This document shows positions 47,424-54,380 of a DNA stretch of 64,000 bases, piece after piece. Each line of letters begins with the position of its first letter. Position 1 is the stretch's first letter. Origin of the DNA: Actinophytocola xinjiangensis (GTDB taxonomy: Bacteria > Actinomycetota > Actinomycetes > Mycobacteriales > Pseudonocardiaceae). Position numbers and translations under genes: made by a program. The stretch lies in contig NZ_MSIF01000033.1 in the NCBI RefSeq assembly GCF_001921215.1, forward strand, positions 1 to 64,000, read 5' to 3'. The notes below the pieces were generated by a model. The model worked only from the letters and a program-made list of their open reading frames with translations. It did not search any database and was not told the origin of the DNA.

Positions 47424-47786
47424 TCAGGAGCCGTGGATCCAGTGCCAGAGGTTGTGGCACGCCGACCCCGAGTGCAGGGGGGCCACGCCGGTACCGGTGC
47501 CGGTGCCGGTGCCGCTGCCCGCGTCGAGGCCGCCGAGGGCGACCAGTTCGCGGAGACGGTCCAGACCGGGCAGGGCGCGCACCGAGCCCGGCTCCTGCTC
47601 CTCCAACCACTTCAGGCCCAGCACGAGCCGCTCCAGGTCGACCGGCCGCGCCGAGTGCGGGCCGTGGAAGTGGCCGTCGTCCGGGGCGGCGACGGCCGCG
47701 TAGGCCTCGAACGCCTGGTACCAGAGTTCGAGGTCACCCAGCACGGGGTGCGGGACCGGGGTCAGGTCCTCGGTGGGAAGGGACAT
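47424..47786 (-). CDS. 120-residue protein with Gly-Thr repeat and aromatic tail (independent start)
   Basis: The ATG at 47786 has AGGAGA nine bases upstream and lies 67 bases from palindrome site a, so I list it as a likely separate product within the longer frame. Residues 1-90 form an acidic helical unit (PHPVLGDLELWYQAFEAYAA, DLERLVLGLKWLEEQEPGS). Then comes (GT)4 and the C-terminal tail APLHSGSACHNLWHWIHGS with Cys, three His and two Trp. A conserved leader followed by a small residue-rich hinge and a compact aromatic tail recalls ribosomal peptide precursors, but no maturation enzyme is evident. Function unknown. Confidence 0.55.
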   Translation of the reverse strand: MSLPTEDLTPVPHPVLGDLELWYQAFEAYAAVAAPDDGHFHGPHSARPVDLERLVLGLKWLEEQEPGSVRALPGLDRLRELVALGGLDAGSGTGTGTGTGVAPLHSGSACHNLWHWIHGS

Positions 47787-49214
47787 GGCGATCATCTCCT
47801 GACGGGATTCACTGGGGAGGTGCGAGGTTTCTCGCTGCCCGGAGTCTGTTGATCCCGGAATCCCGGGAACAAGGGGGTTCGGATCATCACGAACGTGCGC
47901 GCGGCGGGAACTTTTCGGGCCGAGCAGACCGTTGAGCAGATGTTCGCCGGTCGAGTACTCGGCGGACGTGCCGCGCAGGTTGTGGGTGATCCACTGCGAC
48001 AGGTCCCGCGTCTGTTCCTCGTCGAAATCAAGAAACACGGACAGGGTGCGTAGTTTCTCGTACTGTTGCGGGGTGAACGGGGTGGTGCGCAGCAGCCGCA
48101 GCACCACCGCTCCGCGAATTCCTCCTGGCTTCACCAGCAGCCAGTTCCGGAATTCCCGCTGCCCGTCGCCGGTCAGCCGGAAACGGGTGTGCGAGCTGTT
48201 CGCGCGCACCCTGGTGGCCGGCCGGACGAGCCCCTTGCGGTACAGGTCACGCAGTTCCTCACGCAGGCCGGCCCGGGTGACGTGCGGCAGTCCCAGCGGT
48301 CCGTTGACGAACGGGAGCACGATGCGCGGGCTCAGGGGGCCGCTGTGCAGCAGGCCGAGCAGCGATCCGGACACCGCGTCGATCGCCGGGACGTCCGGCA
48401 CGGCCCGCCGGTACCGCACCAGAAAGGCGAATCTCCTGCTGTACCAGCGGATCGCGAACCGGATGACGGTGTGCACCAGCGCGTCGCGCGGGTCCGTGCC
48501 GGTCTCGGTGGCCGGCGGGTCCCACCAGCGCACCGGGCTCGCCCCCGTGGCCGACATCCGCCGGCTGAGCTCGGAGAGGTCGCGCTGGACCTGACCGCGC
48601 AGGTCCTGGGCGTCGGCGCACCGGAGCTGGATCCTGTCCACGGGGCGTTGCGGGTGACCGCGCAGGTGCTCGGCGACCTCCTCGGCCAGTCCGCTCCGGG
48701 GCGCCGCGCTGTGCGCGAGGTGATACATGAGCGGCTGACCGCGGCCCGCGCCACCGAACGCGATGTCGACGATCGAGCGCGCGACGTCCCGGCGCACGTA
48801 GCCGAACACGTTGGCCTCGGCCAGTTCCCGCACGATCGCGATGACCGTCGCGGTCCGGGCGCTGCCGCAGGCATGCCAGATCAGGCCGCCGGTCAGGGGT
48901 CGCCACGGTGGCCCGTCCCGCTCCACGGCGCCGGTCTGACCCGACCCGGGCGGGTGGGCCGCCCACCGCACCAGGTCGAGCAACACGTCGTCGATGTCCC
49001 GGCCGCGTTCGCCGGCCGGCGCCCGGCCGCCGAAGGGGACCCGGTCCTGAACGCGGTCGACGACCTCCTCGGGCGTCATCGCCTGGATCGCCACGGCGTT
49101 GGCGGCGCCGACGCTGGACCGCTCCAACAGCCGGTCGAACTCGTCGCCGTGCACCCCGCCGTCGCCGAGGTGCACCGGCGGGACCTGGTGGTGGATCTCG
49201 TTGCCGAACGTCAT
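47424..49214 (-). CDS. Winged-helix protein read through into a Gly-Thr/His-Trp tail
   Basis: One uninterrupted frame of 596 residues, starting by TGATG overlap with the sigma-like gene. No family is recognised overall. Residues 1-230 are helical (LTGGLIWHACGSARTATVIAIV). About 280-390 contains a PadR/MarR-like winged helix (SGSLLGLLHSGPLSP, PHVTRAGLREELRDLYRKGL, TRFRLTGDGQREFRNWL). A Pro/Ser-rich join near 445-475 leads into a distinct C-terminal part with its own ATG, ribosome site and upstream operator (see 47424-47786). Either the two are fused, or the last part is also made separately. Last gene of the signalling operon. Confidence 0.6.
   Translation of the reverse strand: MTFGNEIHHQVPPVHLGDGGVHGDEFDRLLERSSVGAANAVAIQAMTPEEVVDRVQDRVPFGGRAPAGERGRDIDDVLLDLVRWAAHPPGSGQTGAVERDGPPWRPLTGGLIWHACGSARTATVIAIVRELAEANVFGYVRRDVARSIVDIAFGGAGRGQPLMYHLAHSAAPRSGLAEEVAEHLRGHPQRPVDRIQLRCADAQDLRGQVQRDLSELSRRMSATGASPVRWWDPPATETGTDPRDALVHTVIRFAIRWYSRRFAFLVRYRRAVPDVPAIDAVSGSLLGLLHSGPLSPRIVLPFVNGPLGLPHVTRAGLREELRDLYRKGLVRPATRVRANSSHTRFRLTGDGQREFRNWLLVKPGGIRGAVVLRLLRTTPFTPQQYEKLRTLSVFLDFDEEQTRDLSQWITHNLRGTSAEYSTGEHLLNGLLGPKSSRRAHVRDDPNPLVPGIPGSTDSGQRETSHLPSESRQEMIAMSLPTEDLTPVPHPVLGDLELWYQAFEAYAAVAAPDDGHFHGPHSARPVDLERLVLGLKWLEEQEPGSVRALPGLDRLRELVALGGLDAGSGTGTGTGTGVAPLHSGSACHNLWHWIHGS
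47853..47868. promoter_or_regulatory. TCCCGG-N4-CCGGGA palindrome, site a
   Basis: TCCCGGAATCCCGGGA; 17 bases of the complement (CCCGGGATTCCGGGATC) are identical to site b. Its near edge is 67 bases upstream of the ATG at 47786 and lies inside the longer reading frame. Confidence 0.62.
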
Positions 49215-50122
49215 CACGACCTCCCCTCGTCCTCGGACGCGGTGTCCGGTGGACGTAGCTTCGTGCGTTGTCGGTGCAGCCGCCGTTCGAAGGCCTTGGG
49301 GCTCAGGCCGACCTCGGCGGCGGCCGCCGCCTGGGTGCCGCCGGTCCTCAGGTGCCACGCCAGGCCCTCGCGCAGTTTCTCGTCGGAGATCCGCGACCAC
49401 AGCCCGGCGGCGTGGTCACGGGTGGCGACGAGGTCGGCGGGGTCGGCGTCGGGGGAGGGGATCCGCTCGACCGGGTCGTCGAGGTCTCCGCCGTCGTCCT
49501 CGGTCCTCGGTGCCGACCGGATGAAGGCCTCCTCGAGCTGCTGGTGCTTCCACCTGGCGTTGCACACCTTGATGAAGCAGCACACGCAGGAGCCGACGAA
49601 GTAGGTGGTGAGGGTCGCGCCCCGGCGGTGGTCCCACTTTCCCTTGCGCAACGCGTAGTCGAGGAAGAAGTCCACCGCGTCGATGATCGAGTCGATCACC
49701 ACCTCGGCGCGGTCCGCGGCGCTCCAGGCCGCGGCGGCGGCCGCGGCGGGGGTGTCCACGCGACCTCGGTACCGCGCGCACTCACCGAAGATCGTGCCGT
49801 CGCGGACCCACAGCGTCATGATCGGGAACGCGTAGCTGAACAGCCGTCGCGCCAGCTTGCTGAAGGCCACCTCGAAGCGTTGCCCGGCGAAGCCGGTGGC
49901 GGCCAGGTACTCCACCAGCCGCCGGTCGGCGTCGAGCCGGTCGATCCGCTCGGTGTCGGCGACCGCGGTCACGTCGTCGAGCAGGGTCTCCTCGGCACGG
50001 CTGACGACCTCGCTGGTGAGGGCCTCGGCGACCACCTCGGCTAATTCCTCGTCCGACATCACTGACCACGCGCTGCCTTCGTCGCCGTCCCGGGGGTCCT
50101 CGGGTTGCGATGTCAGGGTCAT
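49214..50122 (-). CDS. Divergent sigma-70-like factor
   Basis: A 302-residue protein resembling a sigma factor. A stretched region 2-like part is VIDSIIDAVDFFLDYALRKGKWDHRRGATLTTYFVGSCVCCFIKVCNARW (named in pieces: FLDYALRKGKWDHRRG, then TLTTYFVGSCVCCF). A clean region 4-like helix-turn-helix is ISDEKLREGLAWHLRTGG, TQAAAAAEVGLSPKAF, ERRLHRQRTKL. W-D-H-R-R-G-A-T-L-T-T-Y matches the core-binding pattern 'WDp..ga.l.tWl' of sigma region 2. The long acidic N-terminus may be inhibitory. ATG at 50122 with AGGGAG; stop overlaps the next start. Presumably directs polymerase to promoters of this system. Confidence 0.72.
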   Translation of the reverse strand: MTLTSQPEDPRDGDEGSAWSVMSDEELAEVVAEALTSEVVSRAEETLLDDVTAVADTERIDRLDADRRLVEYLAATGFAGQRFEVAFSKLARRLFSYAFPIMTLWVRDGTIFGECARYRGRVDTPAAAAAAAWSAADRAEVVIDSIIDAVDFFLDYALRKGKWDHRRGATLTTYFVGSCVCCFIKVCNARWKHQQLEEAFIRSAPRTEDDGGDLDDPVERIPSPDADPADLVATRDHAAGLWSRISDEKLREGLAWHLRTGGTQAAAAAEVGLSPKAFERRLHRQRTKLRPPDTASEDEGRS

Positions 50123-50222
50123 GCTGTTCTCCCTCGTGCGAGGATGCGGCGCCTCCGGTGCGGGCGTTCTAGGCGACGCGGCGGCGTCACCCCCCGACCG
50201 GGGCGCTGGCATCGGAATCAGG

Positions 50223-50891
50223 TCAGGTCAGGACGTCGCCGAGATCGAGGGCGTGGCGGGTGGCCGGCGTCGGCACGTGCCACCAGCCGCGTGCCGTCGC
50301 CGGCCGCTGGCCGGGGAAGGCGATGAAGGACACCGGGTCGATGCCCTCGTAGCGGTGCCGCACGACCGACTGGTAGATGTCGTCGGAGACCACGAGCAGC
50401 AGCGGGGCGGTCGTGCGCCGGAGCGCGAGCTTGGTCTCCGGCGCGTCCAGCAGCCGGAAGGCGAGGTCGAGTGCCTCGCCGAACGGTGCCCGGCGGTCGT
50501 GGTGCACCTCGCCCGCGTGCAGCACCGCGCGCATGCGGAACCCGTCGGCCGGGGAGCACAGGTTGTGCAGGGTCATCAGCTGGCTGAGCGCCGGCACCAC
50601 CGTGTGCAGCAACACGGTCTTGGGGACGTGGTCGTTCGGGTGGACGAGGGCGAGAATTCCGTCACCGCGATCTATGAACGGGTCGTGATCGTGTTCGGAT
50701 ATTCCGCTCGCGGCGAATGCCTCGATCACGAGGTCGTAGAGCGCGGCGCGCATGTGCGCCTTCGCGGAGTTGTTCCTGGTGGCGGAGTCTTCGACGTCGA
50801 CGGCGAGGATGGACCGGTAGTACGGTCTGTTGTCACTGATCACGATCGATATCGTGGAGATCCCGGAATCCCGGGTGGTAGGGGAGTTCAC
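50223..50891 (-). CDS. Class III nucleotide-cyclase-like protein
   Basis: A 222-residue single-domain protein with the cyclase homology layout: YYRSILAVDVEDSA (metal-binding D32), DRGDGILALV (second metal Asp, D77), RMRAVLHAGEV and FGEALDLAFRLLD. In active cyclases the last motif is G-x-x-x-N-x-A-x-R; here the Asn position reads Asp while the Arg is kept, so activity or substrate may differ. Such solitary domains are common in actinobacterial signalling loci. GTG at 50891 overlaps the response-regulator stop (GTGA). If this start is right, palindrome site b is within the coding region; a GTG at 50843 would leave it upstream. Confidence 0.72.
   Translation of the reverse strand: MNSPTTRDSGISTISIVISDNRPYYRSILAVDVEDSATRNNSAKAHMRAALYDLVIEAFAASGISEHDHDPFIDRGDGILALVHPNDHVPKTVLLHTVVPALSQLMTLHNLCSPADGFRMRAVLHAGEVHHDRRAPFGEALDLAFRLLDAPETKLALRRTTAPLLLVVSDDIYQSVVRHRYEGIDPVSFIAFPGQRPATARGWWHVPTPATRHALDLGDVLT
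50861..50876. promoter_or_regulatory. TCCCGG-N4-CCGGG(A/T) palindrome, site b
   Basis: TCCCGGAATCCCGGGT differs from site a only in the last base. It overlaps the first codons of the cyclase-like gene and lies 12 bases past the response-regulator stop, where an internal promoter would be expected. Confidence 0.55.
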
Positions 50892-51580
50892 CCCGGTTGA
50901 CCGGGATCCTCCGGCTGTCCGAGCCCGATCTCGCGCGCCCGCGCGCCCGCGTCCTTTCTGGTCGGCACTCCCAGTCTCGCGACGATCTCGGACAGCCGGT
51001 TGTCCACGGTCCGCCGCGCGATGTTGAAATAGCTGGCTATCTCCGGGACGGTCTTTCCCGCCGCGTACTGAGCCAGGATGTCGTTCTCCCGCTGGGTCAG
51101 TTCGGCGAACGTGGCGCCGCCGTTGGTCGGGGCGGCGATGAGGTGCGTGAGCAGCGCGGCCACCGCCGGCGACAGGAAGGCCGCTCCCGCCGCCGTCTGG
51201 TGCACGGCCTTGAGCAGATCCTCGGCCGGGTCCTCCTTCATCACGTAGGCGAGCGCCCCCGCGTGCAGGGCTTCACGCACGCGCTCCTTCTCCGGGAACG
51301 CGGTGACCACCGCGATCCCCACGCCCGGGCAGCACCGGAGGATCTGCCGGATCGCCTCCGCCCCGCAGTACCTCGGTTTCTCGTGGGGACGCCAGGGCAG
51401 GCGCAGATCGATGAGGACGACCGAGGGTCTCAGCTCGGGAACGGCCCGCACGGCCTCCAGCGCCGTGCCGAACTCGGCGACGACCTCGATCGCGGGGTCG
51501 GTGTCGAACTGGGCGCGCAGCCCTCGCCGGAAGATCTCCTGGTCCTCGACGATCACGACGCGGACCTGCGCCTCTTTCAC
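50888..51580 (-). CDS. NarL/LuxR-family response regulator
   Basis: A 230-residue two-component regulator. Receiver at about 8-135 with phospho-acceptor D58 (VVLIDLRLP), acid pocket VEDQ, and an insertion after the Asp loop (PWRPHEKPRYCGAEAI) that is longer than usual. LuxR helix-turn-helix near 160-215: LTQRENDILAQYAAGKTVPE, IARRTVDNRLSEIVARLGV. GTG at 51580 with GGGAG, 19 bases after the kinase stop. It should be phosphorylated by the kinase encoded before it and is the best candidate to bind the three TCCCGG-N4-CCGGGA sites. Confidence 0.9.
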   Translation of the reverse strand: MKEAQVRVVIVEDQEIFRRGLRAQFDTDPAIEVVAEFGTALEAVRAVPELRPSVVLIDLRLPWRPHEKPRYCGAEAIRQILRCCPGVGIAVVTAFPEKERVREALHAGALAYVMKEDPAEDLLKAVHQTAAGAAFLSPAVAALLTHLIAAPTNGGATFAELTQRENDILAQYAAGKTVPEIASYFNIARRTVDNRLSEIVARLGVPTRKDAGARAREIGLGQPEDPGQPG

Positions 51581-51599
51581 GTGCGGCTCCCTGGTGGTG

Positions 51600-53564
51600 T
51601 CAAGCGGAGTTGATGGACATGACCGGCTCGTGGAAGGGGAGAAAGGCGACGACCAGGGTTCCCGGTGCGAGCGGCTCGACCCGGAACCGTCCGCCACGGC
51701 TGACACAGCGGCGGCGCATGGAGTCCAGGCCGGTGCCGATCCCCGCCTCGGGGGCGATCCCGTGGCCGTCGTCGGTCACCGCCACCTCCAGGCCGTCGGC
51801 GCTGCCGGTGAGCTGGATCCGGCAGTTCGCGGCCCCGGCGTGCCGGTCGACGTTGGTCAACGCCTCGCCCACGATCCGGTAGGCCGCGCGCTCCACGTCG
51901 TCGGGCAGCCCGTCGAGCCCGTCGGTCGTGCTCACCTCGACGGTGAACCCGGGGCGGGCGAACTGCTCGGCCCTGGCGCGCACCGCGTGCAGCAGGCCCT
52001 CGCGCAGCGCGCCGGGGCGCACGGTGCGCGACAGCTCGCGTACCTCGACCGACACCGTCGTGAGGTCCCGGACGATCTGGTCGAGTTTGTCGAGCGTCTC
52101 GGTCTGGGCGGTGTCGATCGACCGGCGCAGCGCGTCGGCCTGGTGGCGGATCCCGGTCACGCTGGGCCCGACCGCGTCGTGCAACTCGTTGGTGAGGCGG
52201 ACCAGGTCCTCCTCGCGTTCCTCGTTGGACCGCCGCAGGTCCTCGGCCAGCCGGGCGGAACGGATCGCGAGCGCGACCTGTCTGGCCAGCGCTCGCAGGA
52301 GTTCGCGTTCGCGCCGGCCGAGGTGTTCGTCGGGTGCCCTGACCTCCACCACCAGCGTGCCGACCGTGCGGCCGTGGTGCTGGAGCGGTACCGGCAGCTG
52401 TGGCCAGCCCCGGCTGTGGCCGTGGGTGGCCAGCAGACGCGGCTCGTCGGCCGGGCCCTCCTGGATCGCGACGTAGGGCAGTTTCAGTGCCGCGCTGACG
52501 GTGTGCGCGATCTCGGCCAGGGCCTCTTCCGGCGGCAGCGGGTTGGCCAGCCGCTCGCCGAGGTCGGTGAGCGCGCGGTACGGGTCGGACCGCTCGCCGT
52601 AGAGCCAGCGGTCGACCAGGCCGCGCAGCCACCGGTGCAGCGGGGCGATGGCCAGGACGACGGCGACCGTGCCCACGACGTCGGCCTGTGAGGGCAGCGC
52701 GGTGGTGAGGGCCAGGACGATGGCCAGGTAGGCGGCCGCGAGGACCACGGTGAGCAGCCCGTAGAGCAGGAAGCGGTGGACCAGCAGGTCGATGTCGTAG
52801 AGGTCGTAGCAGAGGATGCCGACGACGACCACGATCGGGAACGCCGCCGCGAAGATCCACAGCCCCCAGGCCGCGCCGAGGAAGTCGAAGAACCAGGCCG
52901 GGACGAGGACGGCCGCGCACCCGGCCGTCAGCAGCCGCAGCCGGCGCTGGGTCGGGTCGGCGCGACGGCCGCGCAGCAACAGTGACACCACCGAGCCGAT
53001 GAGCCCGGCGAACGCGCAGCACACCCCGACGATCGTGACGACCAGCGGCGCTCCCCGGGTCGCCGTCGTGCCGACCTGGGTCCAGAACGTGCCGGGCGCG
53101 CCCCAGGACGCCCAGCCGATCCCGGCGCAGGGCAGTACGACGCCCAGCACGCACAGGACCAGGACCGCCCGCCAGCGCGTCGAGATCAGCCGGCCGTCGG
53201 GGAACAGCAGGGTCGCCAGTGGCAGCAGTGCGTGGCTCGGCCACCAGATCCAGGTCCCGAGCCAGTCCAGTACCGGTGTCGACCAGAGTTCTGTGCCGAC
53301 GGCCAGCGCGGCGCACAGGCCCATGACCAGCACGATCCAGCCGATGGCGTTGTGCCGGGAGTGCGCGACGATGCGCACCCCCAGCAGGCTGTACACCACG
53401 GCGACCACCCAGTCACGCGGGTTGGTCGCCGCCGGACCGAGATCGAGCGCCCACGCGACCACGACGGCCAGCAGACAGGCCGCCGCGGTCGTGGCGAGCA
53501 CCCTTGAGGTGAGAATCTCCTTGCCTGGTAGGGATGTTGTCCGAACGGTCTGCTCGTGCGACAC
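51600..53564 (-). CDS. Membrane histidine kinase (NarL-partner type)
   Basis: A 654-residue sensor kinase. Nine or ten hydrophobic helices occupy residues 20-310, a large membrane sensor with little extracellular sequence. A GAF-like domain follows at about 330-450 (ALTDLGERLANPLPPEEALA, VAIQEGPADEPRLLATHG), then HisKA_3 with phospho-acceptor H462 (NELHDAVGPSVTGIRHQ), and a HATPase with N-box RIVGEALTNVDRH and G-box VTDDGHGI, GTGLDSMRRR. A membrane-embedded sensor suits lipophilic ligands or short peptides. GTG at 53564 with AGGGGG. A 31-codon reading frame lies directly upstream. Confidence 0.88.
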   Translation of the reverse strand: MSHEQTVRTTSLPGKEILTSRVLATTAAACLLAVVVAWALDLGPAATNPRDWVVAVVYSLLGVRIVAHSRHNAIGWIVLVMGLCAALAVGTELWSTPVLDWLGTWIWWPSHALLPLATLLFPDGRLISTRWRAVLVLCVLGVVLPCAGIGWASWGAPGTFWTQVGTTATRGAPLVVTIVGVCCAFAGLIGSVVSLLLRGRRADPTQRRLRLLTAGCAAVLVPAWFFDFLGAAWGLWIFAAAFPIVVVVGILCYDLYDIDLLVHRFLLYGLLTVVLAAAYLAIVLALTTALPSQADVVGTVAVVLAIAPLHRWLRGLVDRWLYGERSDPYRALTDLGERLANPLPPEEALAEIAHTVSAALKLPYVAIQEGPADEPRLLATHGHSRGWPQLPVPLQHHGRTVGTLVVEVRAPDEHLGRRERELLRALARQVALAIRSARLAEDLRRSNEEREEDLVRLTNELHDAVGPSVTGIRHQADALRRSIDTAQTETLDKLDQIVRDLTTVSVEVRELSRTVRPGALREGLLHAVRARAEQFARPGFTVEVSTTDGLDGLPDDVERAAYRIVGEALTNVDRHAGAANCRIQLTGSADGLEVAVTDDGHGIAPEAGIGTGLDSMRRRCVSRGGRFRVEPLAPGTLVVAFLPFHEPVMSINSA

Positions 53565-53589
53565 GGTGAGCCCCCTCGAAGATGTGCCG

Positions 53590-53685
53590 TCAGCCGCCGT
53601 TGGCGCGGTGTCCGGTGTGGCGGGGCATCGTGCTGTCGTGCATTCCCGTGCGACCCGGCACGGGGATTCGGAGCGGTTCTGGCAT
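53590..53685 (-). CDS. 31-residue peptide gene ahead of the kinase
   Basis: ATG at 53685 with a strong GGAGG site (spacing 7), 31 codons with mostly G/C third bases, TGA at 53590-53592, ending 25 bases before the kinase GTG. The peptide is basic and rich in Pro, His, Gly and Arg, beginning MPEPLRIPVPGRTG and ending HRANGG. It has no hydrophobic signal sequence. Its start is exactly 67 bases from palindrome site c, the same distance as 47786 from site a. It could be a signal peptide for the kinase, a regulatory leader peptide or a small effector; none can be decided from sequence. Confidence 0.5.
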   Translation of the reverse strand: MPEPLRIPVPGRTGMHDSTMPRHTGHRANGG

Positions 53686-53701
53686 GACGTGTCCTCCCTC
53701 G

Positions 53702-53750
53702 GTCGATGCTGCGGCCTGCCCGAAGGCATCGGTGTGGGTGCAGCATCGAC
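53702..53750 (-). promoter_or_regulatory. 10-bp-stem hairpin in the operon leader
   Basis: GTCGATGCTG (53702-53711) and CAGCATCGAC (53741-53750) are perfect complements. An inner stem TGCC-CGAA-GGCA sits in the loop. In the minus-strand transcript the structure lies between palindrome site c and the ribosome site of the small peptide gene, suited to attenuation or translational control. Confidence 0.55.
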
Positions 53751-53751
53751 G

Positions 53752-53767
53752 TCCCGGACTCCCGGGA
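53752..53767. promoter_or_regulatory. TCCCGG-N4-CCGGGA palindrome, site c
   Basis: TCCCGGACTCCCGGGA differs from site a only in one spacer base. Near edge 67 bases upstream of the ATG at 53685. It marks the presumed main promoter of the signalling operon. From 53768 to 54380 no gene can be supported. Confidence 0.62.
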
Positions 53768-54380
53768 GGCAGAGAGCCGACGTCCCGGTTCGCCAGGAGG
53801 GGCGGCGGGTCGCCGGGTGTGTCCGGAGCTTGTCCGGGGGCGGCGGGAATTCTGGAAACGTCGGCCGGGAACGGTCGCCAGGAGAATGCCGCCGGGCGGG
53901 TGTTGGTCCGGCCGCGCCGCGCGGTCGTGATCACGGCGGGGGTATTCATGATCGTGTTCCGGGTGGACCGGGACCGCGGCCGGTCGGGCGGGCCGGGGAA
54001 TTCCGGGGCGGACTCGCCGGGGAAGGTGCCCAGGGGTGGCCTCGGTGCGGTCGCCGGCCGGCTCCACGGCACGTTCTCCCTGCGTGGGGGCCCTGCGTGC
54101 GGGGCGGCTGCCGGCCGGGCGAGCGCCGGCCCGGCCTCGTCGGTGAGCGTCGGTGCGCACAGCGAGGACAGGCCGTGAATTGCGAGGGGCGGAGCTGCGC
54201 GAGCGCGCTGGCGTGCCACTCGAGAAAGTTTACTCAGCGTGCCCGAGTGATTAGCCGGAGGGTGCGCAAGTGGGTGAATGATGATCGTCATGCACACAGG
54301 GTGCGACATATTCACCGTGATTGATCTTGTGGCCGGTGGGAAATCTCCGAGAAATGATCGAAACGGCCCAGCCGGCCAGG

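Follow-up and report, generated by a model that had tools for sequence, protein, structure and literature searches.

In peptide quorum-sensing loci, the signal gene adjoins the gene for a kinase with multiple transmembrane (TM) segments, and NarL-type regulators fit a tandem site geometry that accommodates two dimers. Cyclic nucleotide monophosphate (cNMP) cyclase domains, some of them inactive, occur in conflict systems, according to the excerpted text of Kaur et al. 2020 (PMC7159879). The window analyzed here, 64,000 nucleotides of Actinophytocola xinjiangensis (assembly GCF_001921215.1, contig NZ_MSIF01000033.1, positions 1 to 64,000; 71% GC), carries on its minus strand, from ~53.8 to 47.4 kb, an operon with genes for a histidine kinase, a NarL-type response regulator, a class-III-cyclase-like protein, and a small protein that an initial annotation overlooked. 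Judged by sequence, these four genes make up a conserved and uncharacterized two-component variant with a presumptive dedicated small-protein partner and a cyclase-like target. The probability is put at about 60% that they form a self-regulated cassette conserved in Pseudonocardiaceae, in which the regulator binds tandem boxes and feeds back, the small protein is the partner of the kinase, and the cyclase-like protein is the output.

Conservation of the cassette

The conserved gene order is small protein, 8-TM histidine kinase, NarL-type regulator, and class-III-cyclase-like protein, found in nine other genomes (loci L052 in genome G027, L068, L069, L070/L126, L071, L072, L121, L122, and L123). 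A family alignment of the small protein, scanned against one genome per species for 84,980 species, gave 76 pattern matches, of which 10 were confirmed as loci: Actinophytocola oryzae, two Saccharothrix, Umezawaea, five Lentzea, and one ‘Rhodococcus rhodnii’ record. Kinase and regulator directly follow the small-protein gene in all 10, and the cyclase-like gene is also present in all five loci outside Lentzea. The cyclase gene was undetectable in the five Lentzea loci, where the small protein, kinase, and regulator are kept. The record titled Rhodococcus rhodnii NRRL B-16535 (L069, JOAA01000018.1) falls in the window’s own family (G136), and its name is probably wrong.

The pairing of small protein and kinase is also seen from the kinase side. 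Searching 297 family genomes with the sensor half of the kinase returned 45 places, with 33 genomes at E < 1e-100 and the next best at 3.9e-42. The upstream gene was examined at 30 of these places (left out were G221:C4 and 12 distant ones at E 3.9e-42 or weaker), and the small-protein gene lies directly before the kinase in 29 of them. The sole exception is the window, where the small-protein gene sits at the 3′ end of the operon. Among the remaining 15 places, G202 and G277:C6 carry the small protein. A small-protein query matched 14 of the same 297 genomes and therefore missed many short Lentzea forms; the kinase adjoins the small protein in 12 of 13 loci checked from this query, and the thirteenth (L065, E 9.6e-4, with an in-frame TGA) looks spurious.

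Beyond the family, the small protein was not found in any of the other 393 genomes among 394 of the class, and the other 383 of 384 genomes held one distant sensor relative, which has no small-protein motif upstream. In the genomes sampled, the cassette is confined to Pseudonocardiaceae, the window’s own family. Among open reading frames (ORFs) of at least 60 amino acids (aa) in 11 loci and the window, the cassette is the sole widely shared part, and flanking genes gave only a few pairwise matches. The initial annotation had combined six proteins (peptide, kinase, regulator, cyclase-like, sigma-like, and winged-helix) into one unit. Only the kinase, regulator, and cyclase-like protein of that set recur together; the other three of its six genes are not kept with them in other genomes.

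Genes of the window operon

The genes of the operon are listed below in the direction of reading.

53590..53685, minus strand: 31-aa ORF, the ‘peptide’ of the initial annotation, without a match in the relatives’ loci
51600..53564, minus strand: histidine kinase, 654 aa, with GAF, HisKA_3, and HATPase_c domains (Pfam, hydropathy)
50888..51580, minus strand: response regulator, 230 aa, with receiver and LuxR/NarL-type helix-turn-helix (HTH) (Pfam)
50223..50843, minus strand: class-III-nucleotide-cyclase-like protein, 206 aa from GTG 50843, alternative start 50891 (Foldseek, start-codon geometry)
49214..50122, minus strand: sigma-factor-like protein, 302 aa, outside the conserved cassette
47787..49214, minus strand: winged-helix-like protein (476 codons), the partner of the sigma-like gene, with a frame that stays open into the small-protein gene
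47424..47786, minus strand: small-protein gene, 120 aa, with the conserved C-terminus GSxCHNxWHWxxG

The six frames first described share one strand with short gaps, as had been stated, but the successive gaps are 25, 19, -4, 100, and -1 bases, the fourth being 100 and not 99. In their domains, kinase and regulator are unremarkable. The kinase matches PF07730 (HisKA_3, 2.6e-9) and PF02518 (HATPase_c, 7.7e-9), both over the Pfam cut-off, and hydropathy predicts 8 TM segments within residues 22–307. The regulator matches PF00072 (receiver, 1.8e-15) and PF00196 (GerE, 4.8e-10), also over the cut-offs, and its residues D58 and K115 are invariant (n = 9 sequences). The cyclase-like, sigma-like, winged-helix, and small proteins have nothing over the cut-off in Pfam or NCBIfam.

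The small protein

The winged-helix frame continues without a stop to 47424, and its last 120 codons (47786–47427) belong to a separate gene family, with an ATG at 47786 and AGGAG upstream. The two genes therefore appear in the window as one frame (47424–49214) with no intervening stop, either a natural fusion or a lost stop. The window protein ends in GSACHNLWHWIHGS and contains GSACHNLWHW. Its homologs range from 89 to 160 aa and have W22, F40, H44, and P73 in common, along with a near-invariant C-terminus, GSP-x-HN-x-WHW, that stands behind a linker of very variable length. The structural model is a helical domain with a predicted local distance difference test (pLDDT) score of 78 and a predicted template modeling (pTM) score of 0.72, in which the C-terminal helix is well predicted and the last ten residues have a mean pLDDT of 89.

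By hydropathy, the small protein has no TM or hydrophobic segment. Thirteen members of the family gave no Pfam match (E <= 0.1) and no NCBIfam match; the best fold match in the PDB has an E of 3.6, which is not meaningful, and PDB sequence searches gave nothing convincing. Searching the published literature by the C-terminal motif turned up nothing relevant, and neither did searches on Pseudonocardiaceae two-component/cyclase operons and Actinophytocola two-component systems among the matches listed.

The 31-aa ORF had been taken for the small protein of the system. Relatives carry the small-protein gene in the slot that this ORF holds in the window, and the ORF itself found no tblastn match in the relatives’ loci, a search that is insensitive with a 31-aa query. 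It was rejected as the peptide of the system; the conserved protein is the 120-aa one encoded by the 3′-terminal part of the winged-helix frame. When the 31-aa ORF region and the small-protein gene region are aligned locally as DNA, the best alignment is nothing more than the 16-bp box common to both. Between site c (described below) and the ORF lies one further feature.

53702..53750, minus strand: strong inverted repeat with an 11-bp stem (predicted RNA fold)

A 66-nt segment here is predicted, from its native sequence alone, to fold at -29.7 kcal/mol. By eye, no such repeat was seen in the leaders of relatives.

Tandem boxes and promoter geometry

The box motif was derived from the window, and the relatives served as the test set. 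Three near-identical palindromes were described initially at 47853, 50861, and 53752, and they lie at these positions. Sites a and c both span -82 to -67 relative to an ATG, in agreement with the 67 bases reported for each. The distal partner boxes at 50891–50906 and 53783–53798, which make sites b and c tandem, had been overlooked. The boxes are as follows, with TCCCGGGAGTCCGGGA, ACCCGGGATTCCGGGA, and TCCCGGGATTCCGGGA given as the coding strand.

53783..53798, minus strand: site c, distal box of the tandem pair (TCCTGGCGAACCGGGA), 31 bp ahead of its proximal partner, tandem score 23/24
53752..53767, minus strand: site c, proximal box (TCCCGGGAGTCCGGGA), preceding the 31-aa ORF and the kinase
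50891..50906, minus strand: site b, distal box of the tandem pair (TCCCGGTCAACCGGGG), 30 bp ahead of its proximal partner
50861..50876, minus strand: proximal box of site b (ACCCGGGATTCCGGGA), its first base 33 nt before the cyclase-like start codon
47853..47868, minus strand: site a (TCCCGGGATTCCGGGA), one box that has no good distal counterpart, ahead of the small-protein ATG

Little can be read from a single palindrome, because the loose pattern is common. TCCCGGN4CCGGGA with up to two mismatches occurs 20 times in the window versus 14.3 expected, and 8 of 100 shuffles reach 20; across the 9.5-Mb genome, exact palindromes occur at 10 places versus 4 for the reversed control. The sequence TCCCGGNNTCCCGGGA has two exact places in the genome, both inside the operon, and with one mismatch 8 further places, 7 of which lie outside it. 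The loose palindrome was accordingly rejected as a genome-wide regulon, lone palindromes being near background. The tandem pattern, built from sites b and c together with relatives, matches only b and c in the whole genome, and the control matches none. The pattern confined to this operon is the tandem form; the loose single palindrome shows no clear enrichment in the window.

In most loci outside Lentzea, tandem boxes 30–31 bp apart precede both the small-protein gene and the cyclase gene. The 10 cassettes offer 21 promoter slots (10 small-protein, 10 cyclase, and the window kinase leader), and in 15 of these the tandem score lies above all background windows of the same locus. The background comprised 991–1772 windows per locus, which overlap (step 10) and hence are not independent; the 23/24 of site c is reached by none of 991. 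Promoter starts for this scoring were placed by hand, and the placements for L068 (cyclase) and L123 (both) are not start codons; the cyclase starts were later redone.

The position of the cyclase box is fixed. In all 10 cassettes, the window included, an in-frame cyclase start codon follows the first base of the proximal box by 32–33 nt, and in L069 and L123 it is the sole candidate cyclase start. The proximal cyclase box scores 8/12 in L069, 9 in L072, and 10 or 11 elsewhere. Only 16–17 nt separate the box from the start codon, which suggests that the cyclase transcript is leaderless and that the proximal box occupies the -35 region. Since this geometry recurs in 10 of 10 cassettes, GTG 50843 is favored over 50891, and the window cyclase most likely starts there, the gap to the regulator then being 44.

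Lentzea loci L073–L077, L062, L064, and L066 have an inverted repeat, GTGGGCACTCG-TGTATCCAGN-CGAGTGCCCAC, ~14–48 bp before the small-protein ATG. Its loop is constant, and its arms vary together in some species (8 aligned, by alignment alone). It may be an RNA hairpin or the site of another regulator.

The cyclase-like protein

The model of the cyclase-like protein (pLDDT 62) matches class III cyclases in Foldseek with a probability of 1.00 and a best E of 2.3e-6. No cyclase came up in a profile search against PDB sequences, and seven members of the family have no Pfam match at E <= 0.1. Residues were compared with those of the sole PF00211 protein found in the window genome, an alignment that hhalign weakly backs in the C-terminal part only (E 0.065). 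D16 and D61, which we take to be metal-binding, are invariant (n = 7, mapped to the canonical cyclase by eye). The presumed substrate-binding Lys and Asp are absent in all seven members, and the presumed transition-state Asn is replaced by Asp in all seven; the Arg is kept in six. Because the metal Asp residues are kept while the substrate Lys and Asp and the Asn are replaced, the protein would be a nucleotide-binding effector or else an enzyme whose specificity has changed.

At least 51 of the 296 genomes of the class have relatives of the cyclase family, a lower bound as at most 10 candidates were scored per genome. In the window genome, a cyclase-like domain forms the N-terminus of an 867-aa NB-ARC-TPR-like ORF (L108 4108-6711, G000:C34), and in another actinobacterium a cyclase-like gene is flanked by a Crp-like regulator on one side and an NTPase/band-7-like pair on the other (L110, G502:C1:3246000-3258000); the names in both cases were given by eye. 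The NB-ARC-TPR-like paralog is in keeping with the conflict-system cyclase domains described in the excerpted part of PMC7159879.

The sigma-like and winged-helix pair

Queries with the sigma-like and winged-helix proteins found nothing in the nine other four-gene loci. Among 99 other genomes searched, the two lie side by side in one (G027:C1:9540960, 46% and 26% identity), ~1.3 Mb from the cassette of that genome. Other relatives of the sigma-like protein (L040–L050) have no convincing winged-helix neighbor within ~1.5 kb on each side (best E 0.0033, filters off). Found apart from the cassette, the two genes look like a module of their own within the operon of this strain. The sigma-like protein itself has no match to a Pfam sigma model at E <= 1, and its weak matches, HTH_8 at 0.014 (Pfam) and CAS_III-E_sigma at 0.078 (NCBIfam), are both below the cut-off. 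In G027, a large NTPase-like ORF (L053 3210-6539, named by eye) precedes the second pair by ~2.3 kb, which hints that the pair may belong to a conflict-type locus. The initial annotation coupled the regulator to a dedicated sigma-like factor; as the pair was not found in the nine relatives’ cassettes and stands separately in 1 of 99 genomes, such a link would be specific to this strain at most.

Proposed mechanism

The gene unit, the near-obligate pairing of small protein and sensor, and the tandem boxes in most loci outside Lentzea are recognizable across the loci compared. The phosphorylated regulator would bind the tandem boxes as two dimers, with the proximal dimer at the -35 position. It would thereby feed back on the transcript of small protein, kinase, and regulator and would also control a second transcript, that of the cyclase, which is probably leaderless. 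The small protein, which is soluble, may bind the TM/GAF part of the kinase as a co-sensor or modulator. The kinase is most likely its partner because 29 of 30 loci pair the small protein with the sensor, whereas some loci, those of Lentzea, do without the cyclase. The cyclase-like protein would be the output, whether an unusual cyclase or a nucleotide-binding effector. In the window, the 3′ end of the operon, behind the sigma-like/winged-helix pair, carries the small-protein gene with a single box, and site c would now serve the kinase directly. The original idea of a self-regulated two-component operon with its own palindrome and a cyclase-like gene gains sequence support, since tandem sites recur in 15 of 21 slots, but the six-gene composition given to it does not hold.

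Several observations weigh against this mechanism. Six of the 21 slots fail against background, namely window site a, the small-protein slots of L126 and L123, and the cyclase slots of L068, L069, and L123, and the cyclase box of L069 matches at only 8 of 12 positions. The five Lentzea loci have no TCCCGG boxes despite the same kind of kinase and regulator, and the near-matches to TCCCGGNNTCCCGGGA lie mostly outside the operon. The cyclase-like model has a pLDDT of only 62, and the protein is without three residues expected of an active class III enzyme. Binding of the boxes by the regulator is suggested by their co-occurrence, by the site geometry, and by the lack of tandem matches at other places in the genome, and the contact between small protein and kinase is a proposal drawn from gene pairing.

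A more specific version would define a previously undescribed class of small-protein-gated histidine kinases. The GSxCHNxWHW protein would be an obligate intracellular co-sensor of the multi-TM kinase, possibly through a ligand bound by its conserved Cys/His/Trp residues, the two-dimer promoter would drive a leaderless transcript, and the altered cyclase would make or read an unusual nucleotide. This version is tentative, at clearly less than even odds. With the cassette, hypothetical genes become a defined four-gene signaling unit that includes two protein families without a Pfam match (E <= 0.1), and it offers a predicted site pattern confined to one operon together with a fixed promoter geometry. 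If the mechanism is true, the cassette would be a model of a soluble small protein tuning a membrane kinase and would link two-component signaling to the cyclase-like domains of bacterial conflict systems.

Alternative explanations

The tandem palindromes could be bound by another regulator or be promoter elements of an alternative sigma factor. The fixed 32–33 nt to the cyclase start points to a promoter and is silent on what binds it, and Lentzea keeps the regulator without the boxes. The two-dimer tandem geometry, however, suits a NarL-type regulator, and a general regulator or sigma factor is unlikely given that the tandem pattern matches nowhere else in the genome. On the whole, this explanation is improbable. 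Even less probable is that the six-gene operon is one system whose regulator drives the sigma-like and winged-helix factors. Its genes are contiguous with short gaps, and the sigma-like gene lies downstream of the box-b promoter, but the pair was not found in the nine other four-gene loci and is remote from the cassette in G027, a genome with both; the idea is very unlikely to hold.

The small protein might instead be the precursor of an exported or modified peptide signal, an autoinducer of the RiPP or quorum-sensing kind, its C-terminus GSxCHNxWHWxNG being the active part sensed outside by the 8-TM kinase. A conserved C-terminus preceded by a linker that differs greatly in length would suit such a precursor, as would a gene adjoining a multi-TM kinase, an arrangement likened to peptide quorum-sensing loci. 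Yet hydropathy finds no hydrophobic segment, the loci compared have no recurring exporter, protease, or modifying enzyme next to the cassette, and the last ten residues are confidently modeled (mean pLDDT 89, model pTM 0.72); an end common to several genera also would not discriminate species. A peptide signal is quite improbable on this evidence. Much the same doubt attaches to a conflict system in which the small protein and the cyclase-like protein are a defense-like sensor and effector that borrow two-component control of expression. The cyclase family does head the NB-ARC-TPR-like ORF of the window genome (L108) and lies beside Crp-like, NTPase, and band-7-like genes in L110 (by eye), and cNMP cyclase domains, some inactive, are described in conflict systems in the excerpted text of PMC7159879. 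The cassette, however, is without an NTPase or recognized toxic effector, and no model of Pycsar or another anti-phage system listed in PADLOC-DB matched the small protein, the cyclase, the kinase, or the sigma-like or winged-helix proteins at E <= 1, the regulator having four generic receiver/HTH matches. In that same excerpted text (PMC7159879), no histidine kinase domain is reported among vWA-associated effectors, and the effectors are diversified, unlike the fixed gene content of the cassette.

Comparison with known systems

The favored reading, a self-regulated four-gene cassette, resembles several described systems in part. Like KdpF-type regulatory membrane peptides, the small protein would be under two-component control, but KdpF (PMC3618439) is a 30-aa membrane peptide, whereas the protein here has 120 aa and no TM segment. 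With the NTP-dependent conflict-system cNMP cyclases of PMC7159879, as far as its excerpted text describes them, the cyclase family shares relatives that are fused to or beside NB-ARC/NTPase-like proteins, and inactive versions are described there; the cassette protein differs in standing alone, in a two-component setting without an NTPase. Class III nucleotide cyclases (Pfam Guanylate_cyc) have the same predicted fold and the two presumed metal Asp, invariant here, but the seven family members lack a Pfam match, and the substrate Lys/Asp and transition-state Asn are replaced relative to the PF00211 protein of the window genome. In domain content, the cassette resembles HisKA_3/NarL-LuxR two-component systems, with a HisKA_3 and HATPase_c kinase, a receiver and GerE regulator, and palindromes before their own operon, to which the cassette adds a dedicated small protein and a cyclase-like gene with a tandem site of its own.

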